From Lycorma delicatula (taxonomy: Eukaryota > Arthropoda > Insecta > Hemiptera > Fulgoridae), in the NCBI RefSeq assembly GCF_047948215.1, contig NC_134462.1, positions 121,480,937-121,544,936 on the forward strand: a stretch of DNA of 64,000 bases. Reading direction: 5' to 3'. Below are positions 23,690-58,952 of the stretch, one piece after another; the stretch's first letter is position 1; every line of letters begins with the position of its first letter. The notes beneath the pieces were generated by a model. It was not told the origin of the DNA. It saw only the letters and a list, made by a program, of their open reading frames with translations, and did no database searches. A program made the translations under genes and the position numbers.

Positions 23690-23720
23690 AAGATCGTTGA
23701 TACCGGTGTTCTTTGGTGGT
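23690..23720 (+). repeat. SINE A, 5' part, split by R1-like insertions
   Basis: AGATCGTTGATACCGGTGTT followed by CTTTGGTGGT matches the middle of SINE A (compare 58769-58798). The sequence breaks off after the 14-mer TGTTCTTTGGTGGT (23707-23720) and resumes at 25095 with the same 14-mer, going on to TGGGTTTCAATTAACC. Bases 5' of 23690 are not SINE sequence, so the SINE was itself 5'-truncated or overwritten. Confidence 0.8.
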
Positions 23721-23838
23721 GAGGGCGAGAAGATGTCCTCCGTTAAAGCCACTACTGGCTAGGAACGGAGGGGGTGGTGTAGCGACCGGATACGCTACGA
23801 GGTGGGATCTTCTCCCCTCGGGGGGGGGGGGATCGAGA
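23721..23838 (+). mobile_element. R1-like non-LTR element 1: 3' UTR only
   Basis: This segment of 118 bases runs from GAGGGCGAGAAGAT to GGGGATCGAGA. It is about 95 percent identical by eye to the last 115 bases of the neighbouring element (24980-25094). It is flanked on both sides by the same 14-mer TGTTCTTTGGTGGT (23707-23720 and 23839-23852). The boundaries are therefore those of a severely 5'-truncated insertion with a 14-bp target duplication. Confidence 0.8.
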
Positions 23839-23852
23839 TGTTCTTTGGTGGT

Positions 23853-25094
23853 TTTGACTCTTGGCAAGATAGGTGGAACGATTCTTCAACAAGTCGTTCG
23901 TTATACGCATGGTATATTCCCCAATGTTAGAGAGTTGCGAGCGGTTAGCTGGGTATCCCCCAATCGGCACACGACGCAGTTCCTCTCCGGACATGGTGCC
24001 TTTAGGGATAAATTGGCTAGGTTTAGGTCAATCGATTCGACTGTAGGGTCGATGACACCGTGGACCATGTCCTACACATATGTCCCCGGTACGAAGCTGA
24101 GCGTAGCAGAGTTACTAGGGAACTCGAGAGAGTAAACTCTGATTTGGATCTACGAGTCAACTGGAGGACTCGTAGAGAGTGGACAATAGTTGCTGGCTTC
24201 CTTCGCTTCCTCGCCTTGAGCAGGACTGCCGAAGGGATTTAGTAGGTGATAGGAACCTGGGTGGCTAGGGACCGCCTGGGCAGTTGACTGGCCGAAGGTA
24301 GGCGCTTAAGGCAGCGTGCCTCGGTTAGATGTAATTGGTGTTATTTTGTTGGAATAAAGCTGTCGGCGGAGTTGCGGCCGCTGCCAACGGGCATGGTTAT
24401 CCTTGTCCCGGGGGGTACGGTCGCGCTCCGACGAGGGCGTTTTGTGAGCACACGACACCGTCGGCGGGACGTGGCTGTGTGCCGCTTCGGTGGTATGCAG
24501 TGGCGTTTCGACGGCGGTTACGAAAGATGGTGAATGTCACGCGGGACTCCGCGATGGAGCTGCGTGGGAGAAGGCGTTCGCTCTCCTCTCCCGGGCAGAC
24601 CGAAGCGGAGTCAGATAGTTTGAACTCTTTGAGTTATACTAAGCGGGGTTCTTTAAGGGAGCTAGGACAAAATTTCGCTGTGTTAAACTTTAGCGGGAAG
24701 TTTTGTTGAAGTGGTAGTAACTCGGGTCTGAGACATTCAGTAAGTTGGCTCAATAATAGTTAGGGCTAGGCGCGGGGTCTTCATTCCGCGGTTAGGCTTC
24801 TAGCTTAGTTCCTGAGGGCGACGTGGTAGCTGCAGGTGTCTGTTGTCTTCTTTCTGAAGGCATAAATCTAAAACTACTATCGGAGTGAACTTTACCGATG
24901 CAGATATGTCCTTCGGGGCATCTGCATCGGTGGCATCTATGCAGGGCCTGAACTGAAAGCTGTGGTGCGCAATCAGTTTGAGGGCGAGAAGATGACCTCC
25001 GATAAAGCCACTGCTGGCTAGGAACGGAGGGGGTGGTGTAGCGACCGGACACGCTACGAGGTGGGATCTTCTCCCCTCATGGGGGGGATCGAGA
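23853..25094 (+). mobile_element. R1-like non-LTR element 2: ORF2 C-terminus and 3' UTR
   Basis: Directly after the second 14-mer, the frame starting near 23865 reads the C-terminal end of an R1-clade ORF2: ILQQVVRYTHGIFPNVRELR, then the HTTQFLSGHGAF box. After a frameshift around 24020-24060 it continues with the Cys-His cluster (DDTVDHVLHICPRYE) and a stop at 24240-24242. Then follow about 850 bases of GC-rich 3' UTR, ending in the same 115 bases as element 1 and in ATCGAGA before the third 14-mer (25095-25108). It is 5'-truncated. The frame at 24335-24709 lies in the UTR and is not a gene. R1 clade is assigned from the GHG...C-x2-C...H-x4-C layout and the 14-bp target duplication. Confidence 0.8.
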
Positions 25095-25250
25095 TGTTCT
25101 TTGGTGGTTGGGTTTCAATTAACCATACCCCCCACCTAGAAAAGGTTGTCCTGAGACTGTACAAGACTACATTTCATTTACATTCGTACATATCATCCTC
25201 ATTCATCCTTTGAATACCTTAGGGTGCTTCCGGAGGCTAAACAGAAAAAA
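25095..25250 (+). repeat. SINE A, 3' part, after the R1-like insertions
   Basis: Begins with the 14-mer and continues GGGTTTCAATTAACC, GTACAAGACTACATTTCATT, TACATATCATCCTCATTCATC and GGAGGCTAAACAG, the 3' half of SINE A, ending in an A-rich stretch. Confidence 0.8.
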
Positions 25251-26049
25251 GTTATTATTTATTTTAGGTATTCCGGCTTTAGTATTCGTTTCAGTATTCG
25301 ATACAAAAGTATGAAAAAATTATTCAAATATAAAGCAAATGTGATCAGAAATCCTGTTCGCCGGTAGAGTTCGATAAATAAAACGCGCATATACTGGAAT
25401 CGATCGAAGAAAAAAATTTATGATCGTCGAATAAATATTAAACATCTTAACTGGGATTAGTGTTATTAATACATTTTTATACGTAATACATAATTTTACT
25501 ATTACGTGACTTCAGCTGCAGATTATAAAACATTGACGTAATTCCATAATTTTTTTTATTACATATACGCTTTTTGTAAGACTAAATAAATAGCGAATGT
25601 TATATTAAAATCGAGTCCACTTTATAATTTAACATACTTTTTTTAAATTTTTTGAGATGTCTTTAGCAGAAATCCATTTTTTATTAAAAGATAATATAAC
25701 ATTTTAATACGGATTTGATGTTAGTATCATCATCTGTTTAAAGTGAATTTAATTTTAAAACAGATAAAAATAATTTAATATTTTACAACAGTTTGGTTAT
25801 TTATAAAAAATTGACGTAAAATATTTTTTAAATTCTTCTTTAATTTTTAAATGGATGTTTTTTTATTAAAATATATAATTTCGTAAGAAATTAATTAATT
25901 TTTTTTTTGTTTTTATTTTAATATAATAAAATTTTAAATCGAAACTATCCTTTTTTTCATTTTTAATATTTCACGTTATTTTTAACTATAACTTTAAGAT
26001 AATTTTGTTTTTTTCGCAAATTAACTGTTTAACTACTCAATTTCAAAAT
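25251..26049. other. No recognised feature
   Basis: Very AT-rich sequence, no domain or repeat boundary seen. Confidence 0.4.
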
Positions 26050-27527: not shown

Positions 27528-28420
27528 GAGTCCGACAAGGATGTTCCCTATCTCCCTTACTTTTTAATCTTTACATGGAACTAGCAGTTAATGATGTTAA
27601 AGAACAATTTAGATTCGGAAGTAACAGTACAAGGTGAAAAGATAAAGATGCTACGATTTGCTGATGATATAGTAATTCTAGCCGAGAGTAAAAAGGATTT
27701 AGAAGAAACAATGAACGGCATAGATGAAGTCCTACGCAAGAACTATCGCATGAAAATAAACAAGAACAAAACAAAAGTAATGAAATGTAGAAATAACAAA
27801 GATGGACCGCTGAATGTGAAAATAGGAGGAGAAAAGATTATGGAGGTAGAAGAATTTTGTTATTTGGGAAGTAGAATTACTAAAGATGGAAGAAGCAGGA
27901 GCGATATAAAATGCCGAATAGCACAAGCGAAACTACCCTTCAGTAATAAATATAATTTGTTTGCATCAAAAATTAATTTAAATGTCAGGAAAAGATTTTT
28001 GAAAGTGTATGTTTGGAGTGTCGCAAGTGAAACTTGAACGATCGGAGTATCTGAGAAGAAAAGATTAGAAGCTTTTGAAATGCGGTGCTATAGGAGAATG
28101 TTAAAAATCAGATGGGTGGATAAAGTGACAAATGAAGAGGTATTGCGGCAAATAGATGAAGAAAGAAGCATTTGGAAAAATATAGTTAAAAGAAGAGACA
28201 GACTTATAGGCCACATACTAAGGCATCCTTGAATAGTCGCTTTAATATTGGATGGACAGGTAGAAGGGAAAAATTGTGTAGGCAGGCCACGTTTGGAATA
28301 TGAAAAACAAATTGTTAGGGATTTAGGATGTAGAGGGTATACTGAAATGAAACGACTAGCACTAGATAGGGAATCTTGGAGAGCTGCATCAAACCAGTCA
28401 AATGACTGAAGACAAAAAAA
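27525..28420 (+). mobile_element. RTE-like non-LTR retrotransposon, 5'-truncated copy 2
   Basis: It starts at AGGGAGTCCGACAAGGATGT, which encodes the RT motif GVRQGCSLSPLLFNLYMELA, about 65 codons further upstream than copy 1. A frameshift near 27605-27615 separates this motif from the FADD box at 27655-27670. Relative to copy 1 it has lost nine bases in the LYGS region, and the Trp codon after SET has become TGA (28036-28038). A second stop follows where HPG became HP-stop near 28230. It ends in ACTGAAGAC plus an A-run, passing into a (AT)n tract at about 28421-28445. Both copies are clearly one subfamily. Confidence 0.85.
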
Positions 28421-39778: not shown

Positions 39779-40109
39779 TAGTATTCCAGTCGCGGCTTCG
39801 CCCATCCTGCCTCCGTAGGGTAAGACATCCGCCTTGTGACGATCCTTGTCGCCACACCGTCCTCTTCGTTCCTAACCTGATGGGCTTTACCGCAGGTCAT
39901 CTTTTAGACCCTCTAAACCTAATAACACACCGCAGTCATCGGTTTGGCCTCTATCAGAGTGCCACCGATGCAAATGCTGCGGCAAACATTTCCATCAGTA
40001 TATTTACACGACTTACTATATCGCCTTCGTATGACTTCTTTCAACCACGACCTCCTACCGCAACTTATTGACTAGAACTGCCTCCCAGTTCTAGTTCTTC
40101 TTTTTTTTC

Positions 40110-40218: not shown

Positions 40219-41345
40219 TTATAGTTCGCTGAGGTCCTTCTTAAGTTCGACGACCCAATCCGTAGTCGCTTTCATATTTGTTAAAAAAATAAAGACGCGC
40301 TTCGTTAACCTATTATCCGACATCCTGAGTATATGACCGTAGAACTTGACCCTTCGTTTTCTCATCGTCGACGTCAGCGGTTCGTTGTTCCCTTTATAAA
40401 GTTCTTCGTTACTTCTTAGTCTGTAAGATCCGTCTTCTAGTTTTCTTGGTCCCAATATTTTCCTCAAGATTCTTCTTTCACGTATTTCCATTTCCTTCAG
40501 TTCATACTTTTTCCTGAGTATCAAACATTCTGATGCGTAGAGTGCCTCTGGTTTGAGCACGGAAGTGTAGTGTCTTATTTTTGATCCGTATGATATACTT
40601 TTTTTGTTGTAGATATTCTTTGTTATCCCGTATGCTCTTTCTAATTTCCTGGTCCTTTCCGTGTTAGCTGCCTCATCGAGTCCATTAGCTTGAATAATTT
40701 CTCCAAGATATTTGAAACGATCGACTCTCCTGATATTCCCTCCTTTTGTTTTTATTTCTTTCTCCTTGTGATGTCGGTATTCCATGTATTCCGTCTTCTC
40801 GTAAGATATCTGTAGTCATGTCCTTATGGCTATTTCCTCTAGTAACTCTATCGATTCTCTAGCCTCTTCAACATTTTTTGTAATTATTGCTGTATCATCT
40901 GAAAAGGCCAAACAATCCACTTTTATTTGGGTTTTACCAGCTCCTAGTCGTATTTCTTTTAATCCGTTTTCCTCTTTCTTCTTACGCCATTCCCTTATTA
41001 TTTTCTCGAGGATTAGATTAAACAATATTGGCGACAGCCCATCTCTCCCTGCCTCAATCCCGTTTTAACTTCAAAGGGCTCTGATATTTCTCCCATAAAT
41101 TTTATTTTGGACTGCGTATTTGTCAACGTTTGTATCCTATTAATGTTTGCGTCTTCCTGTCTACTCCGAATTCCTTGAGCGTTTCCATCATTGACTCTCT
41201 GTCTATCGAATCGTATGCCTTCTTGAAATCTACAAACGTTACTACGGTGTTAATTCCTCTCAATGCTCTTAGTCTTAATATATTTTTTAAATTGAAGATT
41301 TGTTCCACGCACGATCTTCCTCTTCTGAACCCTCCTTGATATAGT
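40219..41345 (-). mobile_element. Non-LTR reverse transcriptase, 5'-truncated (family 2, best copy)
   Basis: Three minus frames read in order. 41308 to 41123 gives RGINTVVTFVDFKKAYDSID, which carries the first catalytic Asp of the palm. 41025 to 40816 gives MFNLILEKIIREW and the catalytic LAFSDDTAIIT box (FADD changed to FSDD). 40785 to 40219 gives FKYLGEIIQANG, ERTRKLERAYGITKN, KPEALYASECL, ERRILRKILGP and RRVKFYGHILRMSDNR, the connection domain and C-terminus. Frameshifts lie around 40800 and 41050-41120. Upstream endonuclease sequence is absent (cut near 41345). Fragments of the same family occur at 15285 and 61235. Confidence 0.8.
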
Positions 41346-41814
41346 TCACATTTATATATAAAGTAATTTAAACAAAATAATACCCTAACATACGTATTAA
41401 TTTTTTTACGAATATTAATAAAATATGTAAGTAAATTTTAAATCTAAAATTTATTTTTAAAAAAATTCACACAAATATCTAACCTGCTGTAAAAGGAAAT
41501 CCCTTTAATAAAGATTAAAGTGCACGTTCTAAATTTCATTACATTAGAACTTCTATTAATTTTAATATTATAAGTAATTATAAAACGTAATAATTAAAAC
41601 TGTTTTAATTAATATCAAAAGAGAGCCGTTCAAAAAATAATGGTGATTTATATTTTACTATAATTAATGTACAGGAAGAAATACGTATTTTATGATATAA
41701 TAAATGCTACGTAACAGAATTTCTGAAAAAAGTTTATCTTTTGTTTCTCCCTTACAAGTACGTTGCAATCTGTTCAACTAGTGAACGATAAGCGATCCCC
41801 CGCGACCCGATGAG
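41346..41814. other. No recognised feature
   Basis: AT-rich sequence. Confidence 0.4.
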
Positions 41815-41990
41815 ATGAGGATGATATGTATGACGTGTAAATGAGATGTAGTCTTGTACGGACTCACGCCGACCGTTCATAAGGCGAGTGGTTAAACCGA
41901 ACCCCGACCACCAAAATACACTATGAAAATCAGCTGTTAAACAACTGATTTGCTGCGAAGAATTAACTACGAGACCGAGAATTAACGGTG
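41815..41990 (-). repeat. SINE A copy, old and incomplete
   Basis: GATGAGGATGATATGTATGA, GTGTAAATGAGATGTAGTCT, GACCACCAAAATACAC and a degraded palindrome (AATCAGCTGTTAAACAACTG) keep the order of SINE A in reverse. About 60 bases between the palindrome and the body (box B) are lost. Confidence 0.6.
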
Positions 41991-49287: not shown

Positions 49288-49929
49288 GGTTAGGATTGGA
49301 AGAGTAGTATATATTGAGTTAGTTTTGGATAGAGGACGAGTTGGCTACCACTGGATGGAGTTGGGGGCTCATACGCAACAGTGGACACGGAGCAGAAGAT
49401 GAATGGCCGCTGCCACAGACACCCTGCCTGCAATTCTTCGCTACTAGGCTGCATTTTGCACATTCTTTTCTCCAAACAAATTGTTCCCCCTTTCAGGTGC
49501 AACCGTTTCCATTTAGAATTCCCCTCAAAAAAAAATAAAAAAACCGAATTTTTACCTACCTTAAATAAACTGCGACCTGGGAATAAGAATATCTTTATTT
49601 TCTCCTCTTTCCTTCCGTTTTTTAACATCGGTTTTTTACTTAAACTCTTGAAATTGGGATTTGAACAAAATTACCCGCTACTTTGTGCAGTCTTCTTTTT
49701 ATACTCTTCGTTAAATAACAAATTAATGCTATTTAAAATGCTTTATCTCATTTTGAATACTGTTTTAAATAAATTATTTTACTTTAAACGTAAACTTTTA
49801 ATGAATTTTAATTATATTATCCGTCTGCATTAATTTACATTTAATTAATTTTAAATTACATTAAACATAATATCAGTATTTTTGCGAGTAATAATGTATA
49901 ATATAGTTTTACAGTACCTTGCTGGCTGT
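48881..49929. other. (ATT)n tract and an unexplained open frame
   Basis: (ATT)n lies at 49256-49287. Downstream, 49381-49833 is open for 150 codons on the plus strand and 49290-49628 for 112 codons on the minus strand. Neither has a recognisable domain. The plus product is hydrophobic toward its C-terminus because of AT-rich codons. I do not call either a gene. Confidence 0.35.
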
Positions 49930-51215
49930 TATAGGCGGCTATAGAACAGTCTCGCGGCAGGCAGTTTGTGTTATAACCGGAATCAAACCGATAGATATCT
50001 TGGCTAATGAGCGCGTAAGGAACGCTTCATTTCCAAGGTAAATAACCTATTGACGTCAGATCGAAAGCAGGAGATTGAAGACCTGGGCCATGCGTCTTGG
50101 CAGGTCAGGTGGGACGAATCCGCCGCAGGTCGCTACAAGCACGGTATATTTCCTATTGTGTCCGATTTACGTGCGATTAGATCGGTATATCCGATTTCCC
50201 CGATCGGTATATCACACGGTTTTTCTCCAGGCGAGTTTGGCTAGGTTTCATTTGGTAGATTCGAGTCGATGCCCGGATTGAGGGATTGATGATACAGTGC
50301 ACCATGTCCTCTATGTCTGTCCCCGATATGAGGTCAAACGTTCACGAGCTGTTAGGGAACTCGAGAGAATACAGCACTTTCAGGGTGATTTGCGTGGAGT
50401 CGTCTGTAGTGGCTTGCTGTCTTCGCGCCCTTGCGGTGTGTAGATCTGCAGAGGAAATTTAATCGAGTTATTTGATCGTGGTAGGATCCCGGATGGTTAG
50501 GGTTCCGGCCTAGGCATTGAATCGGTTGGAGGTAGGCGTATTGGCATCTGCCACGGTCATATTGGTATCGTTTTCTGATTCGATTTGGGGCTCCCACTGG
50601 GGGTGGTGGCCTGTTCGACCGGGAGCGCAGCTTCGTCCCGCTGGTGGCGGTCCCTGATTGTGACTTTGTAATGCCGCGCGAGACTCCATGATGGGACCCG
50701 GTGGGAGTGCGGGGTTTGTCCCCGGCTCCTGCGGGGACCGGAATGACGTTACGTTCCCCTTGTTAGGTGACCTAATTTGGTCAACTTATTAGGTGTAGGT
50801 CTGAATTTCTATGTTGCGTAAAACATCATATTGATCGGTAGATTGTAGCACTGATTTGACGTACAACTCGTTCGTTTTCTTAGGCATTCGCAGTCACGAA
50901 CCGTGTTGTCAAATTTGGACTAGGTGGTCCACGGTCTCGGTTAGTTAGTTAGTTAGGTTGGATGTTAAGATGTCCGTTTGAGGTCTAGGTGAAGGCAAAA
51001 TTTGATTTGTATTTTACTGATGCAAATGTCTGCCGAGTCATTTACGTCGGTGGCATCCCGACCGAGCCCTGACTGATGACTGTGCGATGTAATCAGTTAG
51101 AGGGTCTAAAGACGACCTCTAGTAAAGCCCCTCAGGGCTTGGAACGAAGGGGGTGGTGTGGCGACCGGTAACGTCTGAAGATGGGTGTCTTCCCCTAGGG
51201 GGTTGGGAGTACGAT
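49930..51215 (+). mobile_element. R1-like non-LTR element: ORF2 C-terminus and long 3' UTR
   Basis: In shifted frames, CVITGIKPIDILANERVRN (49960-50020) and LGRSGGTNPPQVATSTVYF are followed by a decayed GHG box. Then DDTVHHVLYVCPRYEVKRSR and ELERIQ follow (50285-50375), matching the Cys-His end of the copy at 23853. About 750 bases of GC-rich UTR end with GTAATCAGTTAGAGGGTCTA...GTCTTCCCCTAGGGG, a diverged form of the 3' terminus at 23721 and 24980. The 3' junction near 51215 is not in a SINE. Target duplication not identified. Confidence 0.75.
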
Positions 51216-58584: not shown

Positions 58585-58650
58585 GTTCAACGTACAATTT
58601 CTTCGTATACTGAACAGAGTTAAGTTGTTGCCTTGTAGAACGCAAATATT

Positions 58651-58952
58651 ACCCACCGAGTTGGTCTAATGGTTAACGCGTCTTCCCAAATCAGCTGATT
58701 TGGAAGTCGAGAGTTACAGCGTTCAAGTCCTAGTAAAGCCAGCTATTTTTACACGGAATTGAATACTAGATCGTGGATACCGGTGTTCTTTGGTGGTTGG
58801 GTTTTCAATTAACCACACATCTCAGGAATGGTCGAACTGAGAATGTACAAGACTACACTTCATTTACACTCATACATATCATCCTCATCCTCATTCATCC
58901 TCTGAAGAATTTTCTAAACGGTAGTTGCCGGAGGCTAAACAGGAAAAAGAAA
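58651..58952 (+). repeat. SINE A copy, right member of the pair (reference copy)
   Basis: Complete copy: head CCACCGAGTTGGTCTAATGG (box A), AACGCGTCTTCCC, the central palindrome, box B GCGTTCAAGTCCT (58719-58731), body, and 3' end GGCTAAACAGGAAAAAGAAA. The 15-bp target duplication GAACGCAAATATTAC occurs at 58638-58652 and 58953-58967. It shares private variants with the 58198 copy (GGAATTGAATAC; an extra T in GGTTTTCAATT), so both come from the same recent source. The frame at 58773 is not a gene. Confidence 0.95.

Follow-up and report, generated by a model that had tools for sequence, protein, structure and literature searches.

TRAS, SART and Waldo are R1-clade retrotransposons with other targets, and Tx1 elements enter transposons. 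Like the family followed here (family B), these elements reach repeats by target-primed insertion, but they have a dominant target, and family B does not use a SINE as one. Transposons also figure among the known targets of non-LTR retrotransposons in the excerpted text of PMC4640811. For the arthropod R1 of 'ancestral type', the consulted portion of Stage and Eickbush 2009 (PMC2718515) describes 14-bp duplications in Drosophila together with 118 non-28S insertions, often in repeats, and mentions for D. simulans a single non-rDNA array of fused R1 and R2. As far as that portion goes, family B resembles this R1 in its APE-type endonuclease and reverse transcriptase, in the 14-bp duplication, in the 14 bp of 28S found between array units, in tandem insertion into the 5' duplication, and in non-28S insertions at short matches to the 28S site. 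Unlike the R1 portrayed there, exact 28S 14-mer ends form a small part of the assembly for family B (6/648, where rDNA may be collapsed or withheld), and double insertions are frequent at unrelated non-28S sites, also between R1 subfamilies. Word searches of the open-licence literature listed no title that deals with SINE targeting by an R1 or with paired R1 insertions away from rDNA.

Here we analyze a 64-kb stretch of DNA (the window) from a 2.2-Gb host genome of 14 contigs, where two R1 inserts occupy one SINE, and follow their relatives genome-wide. In our judgment, the window inserts probably belong to a 28S-type R1 non-LTR retrotransposon and are 5'-truncated, off-target copies of it, with double occupation arising through re-entry into the 5' duplication. 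The original prediction had read the locus as a case of sequence-specific SINE targeting; that claimed new target class is removed, and a measurable property takes its place, namely the frequency, about one in eight sampled copies, with which R1 reuses a base at unrelated sites.

Two R1 Inserts Share One Site in a SINE

Exact matches confirm that TGTTCTTTGGTGGT occurs three times, at 23707, 23839 and 25095, around R1-like inserts of 118 and 1242 bases (R1a and R1b), and that both inserts end in the common terminus GGGATCGAGA, with 92% identity across the last 118 bp. The features of the window are as follows:

23691..23706, plus strand: remaining 5' part of the host SINE (BLAST of 23691-23720 against the SINE at 58768-58797, 96.7%)
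23707..23720, plus strand: 14-bp target site duplication, copy 1 (exact match)
23721..23838, plus strand: R1a, 118-bp 5'-truncated 3' end of R1 family B (92% to the end of R1b; 99% to element B over 107 bp)
23839..23852, plus strand: 14-bp target site duplication, copy 2 (exact match)
23853..25094, plus strand: R1b, 1242-bp 5'-truncated R1 with a degraded ORF2 C terminus (to about 24140, by eye) and 3' UTR (translations; 80.7% to element B over its length)
25095..25108, plus strand: 14-bp target site duplication, copy 3 (exact match)
25109..25251, plus strand: 3' part of the host SINE (BLAST against SINE copies, 74-83%)
39810..40070, minus strand: R1d, diverged R1-like 3' fragment at a non-SINE site (73% local match; ends by eye)
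49913..51207, plus strand: R1c, diverged R1-like copy at a non-SINE site (72-73% local matches to R1b; ends by eye)
58646..58949, plus strand: uninterrupted SINE copy with an empty site at 58784 (14-mer and BLAST; ends approximate)

With up to two mismatches allowed, TGTTCTTTGGTGGT has nine matches in the window against 0.57 expected, a number reached in 0 of 100 shuffles, and three further exact copies (31019 and 58336 on the minus strand, 58784 on the plus strand) each lie within a SINE copy. The window holds four fuller SINE copies besides the host of the R1 pair, and the outer flanks of the pair resemble copies near 58.3, 58.8, 31.0 and 30.7 kb, so that the identification of the host sequence as a SINE is borne out by BLAST. 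The proposed SINE flanks on both sides hold at the 3' side; at the 5' side the SINE portion consists of 23691-23720 only (30 bp including the 14-mer), and since only these 30 bp remain, the host SINE is 5'-truncated or replaced upstream of the pair.

In translations judged by eye, R1b has a frameshifted stretch that looks like the C terminus of an R1-type ORF2, with the 3' UTR behind it. Its last 115 bp match the other 39 scored places in the genome at 92-96%, and in a tree it clusters with two of the other loci (L019 and L026). The two more diverged R1-like copies of the window (~49.9-51.2 kb and ~39.8-40.1 kb; 72-73% local matches) lie outside SINEs. Window ORFs at 40219-40815 (minus strand), 479-1333 and 27585-28037 (both plus strand) resemble by eye reverse transcriptase fragments of other LINEs. 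The 3' half of the SINE also recurs as the terminal part of another repeat, which is longer (window 41800-41921, minus strand), and the tail may therefore be common to several repeats.

Family B Is a 28S-Type R1

A full-length relative, element B (5600 bp), was recovered from the genome and upholds the assignment of the inserts to R1-type elements. It carries open frames of 465 and 1028 aa; the upstream 465-aa frame is without a Pfam match, and the 1028-aa frame matches RVT_1 (8.6e-31) and Exo_endo_phos_2 (1.2e-8) in Pfam. Among solved structures, its endonuclease is best matched by that of R1Bm from Bombyx (2ei9, E 5.8e-23), with TRAS1 at 1.2e-12. Element B stands between two A-like elements in an array, the site of copy L016, whose A-like and B elements are ~71% alike and whose units are separated by TGTCCCTATCTACT, which we take to be the R1 target site in the 28S rRNA gene. 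The same 14-mer is contained in a tick 28S primer given in the consulted part of PMC9725135. This R1 array (L031/L032) lies on contig C1 in a neighborhood that is partly N. Exact family-B 3' ends (CGAGA) stand directly before TGTCCCTATCTACT in six cases, all among the 648 exact ends of the genome, and C1 carries five of the six (31.54-31.76 Mb). Taken together with the scattered flanks and the lack of SINE-flanked relatives detailed below, these 28S 14-mer junctions identify family B as a 28S-type R1 with many off-target copies and relaxed targeting, the evidence for rDNA being the 14-mer in arrays. The viral contigs scanned gave 0 matches.

On C1 at 86.56-86.74 Mb (L131-L134), variant forms of the 28S 14-mer (TGTCCCTATACACG, TGTCCCTACACACG or TGTCCCTATACACT) stand between R1 elements, which possibly represent a decayed or diverged array.

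Family B Inserts at Scattered TG(T) Sites

Family B comprises hundreds of copies, with 648 exact 3' ends in the host genome, and those read lie mostly at scattered TG(T) sites, usually after C, within 14-bp duplications. The flanks read after its 3' ends show no large SINE excess, contrary to what targeting would have led one to expect; the flanks are unrelated and mostly start with TG(T). Matches to the last 115 bp of the R1 3' end were scored for the best 40 of 1732 first-look candidates, and in a first sample of 29 other loci, with unrelated flanks, 25 start with TG and 16 with TGT. The corresponding numbers are 53 and 37 among 57 exact ends on C1 (second sample), and 18 and 11 among 20 scored relatives of one old SINE-site copy, L054 (third sample). 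The anticipated 14-bp duplications were found with at most two mismatches at 23/29 first-sample loci (two 5' ends were unread and four were ambiguous). Across the 23 sites with both junctions, C occupies position -1 in 16 and A or G position -2 in 18, a preference that resembles CAC/TGTCC of 28S (the slash marking the junction).

From these samples we assembled 96 off-target loci (27 + 49 + 20), the window excluded. Two first-sample loci were dropped, L016 as 28S and L018 as a repeat of L017. The 57 C1 ends, drawn from the first 67 listed of the 648, contributed 49 after removal of L093, L104 and L131-L134 (28S or 28S-like) and of L087 and L121, each repeating a flank. As to the other ten of the 67, five belong to the first sample or to L016 (L014-L018), four at C1 31.55-31.76 Mb were left unread, three of them being 28S junctions, and the tenth, L062, has a flank that is not SINE and was not counted. 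Of the 40 relatives of L054 that were scored, 20 make up the third sample. The 96 include neither the window nor L095-L097, nor the SINE junctions that came from pattern searches.

One in Eight Sampled Copies Adjoins Another R1

Directly past the 14-bp duplication (+15 to +20), R1 sequence resumes at 12 of the 96 off-target loci, or at 14 if two uncertain ones are included, and thus about one in eight sampled off-target copies is separated by a single 14-bp duplication from another R1 downstream. By sample, doubles number 3/27 (L009, L012, L015), a lower count in that not all flanks there were compared with the R1c-like library; 8/49 (L079, L086, L089, L090, L109, L116, L118, L122), where L086 and L087 count as one; and 1/20 (L157). 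Doubles identified from flanks were judged from the 3' side, with the 5' duplication unread. Of the two uncertain cases, L142 and L144, one resembles R1 from +26 onward and the other has a gapped R1 match across the 14-mer; a further candidate, L080, seemed double by eye, failed a shuffle test and was left uncounted. Copies nested in an R1 body served as a control, with the R1 match running through the first 14 bases (12/14 at L113, 13/14 at L149), and in the doubles L079, L086, L116 and L157 and the 28S case L093 only 5 to 8 of these 14 bases match R1. If insertions fell uniformly on TG sites and 10,000 residents are assumed, about 0.00004 would be expected.

At SINE sites, at least 3/11 loci found by junction search are double (the window, L050 and L052; the upstream parts of L075 and L077 are unread). 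One base is used repeatedly by different copies and also by different subfamilies: the pairs at L009, L015, L050 and L052 join different R1 families, with R1c-like elements as second occupant. Because doubles occur at many unrelated sites, the argument that double occupation of one base points to SINE targeting does not hold.

Proposed Re-entry into the 5' Duplication

The duplications themselves suggest an order of arrival. At L009, L012 and L050, the first and second duplications are identical and the third differs by two, one and two bases, respectively, as expected if an upstream copy entered the 5' duplication of an older R1; L052 is consistent with this but weakly, with the first duplication lacking three bases and the last base that it shares with the second possibly being element-derived. 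The first three loci, and weakly L052, thus mark the upstream copy as the later arrival, inserted into the duplication 5' of the resident. L015, where the second and third duplications agree and the first differs at two bases, indicates the opposite order, and the three identical 14-mers of the window carry no dating information for its two insertions. The same route, insertion into the 5' duplication, is inferred for 28S arrays of Drosophila in the consulted text of PMC2718515; since it is already published for those arrays, its frequency outside rDNA is the part worth keeping.

We propose that the endonuclease would nick the bottom strand at a short core, (A or G)C/TGT, resembling CAC/TGTCC of 28S, that target-primed reverse transcription would begin at the nick, and that top-strand cleavage would follow 14 bp further on. 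As the 14-mer is duplicated together with intact native sequence on its upstream side, the site would remain open to cleavage, and later R1s could insert there, in the resident's 5' duplication.

Cleavability of the site may not be all there is to it: resident R1 copies, or their chromatin, might attract later R1s to the 5' duplication beyond it, a possibility that we consider somewhat less likely than not. Although the site is common to the SINE copies, double occupation was seen at no fewer than 3 of 11 loci from the SINE junction search, and the 12 to 14 of 96 loci that adjoin a resident R1 compare with ~4e-5 expected for uniform TG sites and 10,000 assumed residents. Against attraction, the downstream R1s start at different truncation points and hence present no common R1 sequence at the nick, and strongly unequal site or chromatin quality could yield equal numbers. 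Tentatively, outside rDNA later R1s, including those of other subfamilies and after long intervals, might be drawn preferentially to the 5' target duplication of a resident R1, marked as a landing site by that resident, in which case any off-target insertion, for example in an abundant SINE, could seed an array and open a route to new niches. If residents do attract newcomers, this would help explain target change in site-specific retrotransposons; the idea is testable here, as the 2.2-Gb genome offers comparable copies by the hundred.

The Window Pair Probably Arose by Two Insertions

For R1a and R1b, separate insertions are much likelier than a single one, given the full 14-mer between the inserts, their different truncation, and the mixed-family doubles of the same form elsewhere; the original claim of two insertions at one base is thus very likely right. 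The pair differs in length (118 vs 1242), in its G run, and at one position that is polymorphic among the 29 other copies (A in 18, G in 11). As more changes from the family have accumulated in R1b, it may weakly be argued to predate R1a.

That one insertion was later duplicated in tandem, or underwent the unequal exchange across the 14-mer named at the outset as a refuting scenario, is unlikely. Such a history would account for the identity of all three window 14-mers and for the rare ending GGGATCGAGA common to both inserts, which recurs at 2/29 other loci (L012 and L022) and, by eye, in 2 among 100 listed exact ends, and arrays commonly undergo unequal exchange. The lengths of 118 and 1242, however, come by eye with no matching repeat at the required breakpoint, R1a and R1b have no private substitution in common outside the G-run region, and the subfamily base differs. 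As a general cause of doubles, recombination is excluded by the pairing of different families at L009, L015, L050 and L052. Among otherwise similar listed copies of family B, ~6 to 15 G residues precede ATCGAGA at the 3' end, as judged by eye.

The SINE Site Is a Mild Hotspot, Not the Target

Family-B junctions at the same base of the SINE were found at the following loci:

SINE-site R1 loci: window, L048, L049, L050, L052, L054, L055, L057, L075-L077, L081

These 12 are a lower bound, 100 of 181 places having been listed, and the SINE 28-mer has 102,805 matches in the genome at up to three mismatches. Eight of the 648 exact family-B ends are followed by TGTTCTT, five of them within the SINE and the remaining three (L095-L097) not; L081, in a decayed SINE, provides a sixth SINE-site end. 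With the TGT-only background extrapolated from site numbers in the 64-kb window, 0.55 exact SINE-site ends are expected where five were seen (P 2.6e-4), or four without the window copy, which was the reason for picking the locus (P 0.0024). The SINE site is thus favored roughly seven- to tenfold over the TGT-only expectation, a mild hotspot. The generic core was rejected as the full cause of this use: the SINE site is without the usual C at -1 and scores -1.4 bits in a matrix of the 23 other sites, below the 0.2 of the median TGT site, and the core consequently fails to predict its repeated use.

A targeting R1 lineage of the kind first proposed, whose endonuclease would have the SINE's TGTTCTTTGGTGGT for its main recognition site, is now very improbable and, for family B, largely refuted. 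The strikes at one base in at least 12 SINE loci and the excess over the TGT-only expectation speak for it, as do six exact SINE-site junctions of R1c-like elements found by pattern (one is L052, the others unread) and a tree in which the old SINE-site copies L049, L052 and L054 group with support 1.00. Against it, SINE-site junctions make up only 1/96 sampled off-target loci, the window excluded, and at least 6/648 exact ends (five with exact TGTTCTT, plus L081), in the presence of 102,805 SINE matches. The SINE-specific lineage that the tree suggested is not supported for family B by the relatives of L054 that were read, none of which has a SINE flank (0/20 newly read and 0/6 read earlier, from 40 scored); as L049 and L052 are themselves absent from those 40, the way in which the old copies were retrieved seems to account for the grouping. 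The SINE is accordingly an occasional, mildly favored landing site, and the predicted reuse of one SINE site stands as such, not as the main target of family B.

A composite transcript carrying both elements is ruled out by inner 14-mers that are equal or nearly equal to the outer ones where read.

Recurrent Flanks at Other Loci

Three R1 junctions (L030, L079 and L122) have the flank TG[A/T]GGG[A/C]TAGAGAC in common; it is not R1 sequence and is perhaps another repeat or motif that was struck repeatedly. The R1 copies L017 and L018 (C1, 18.74 Mb) lie in opposite orientation at a distance of ~4 kb and have identical 3' flanks, in what looks like an inverted duplication.
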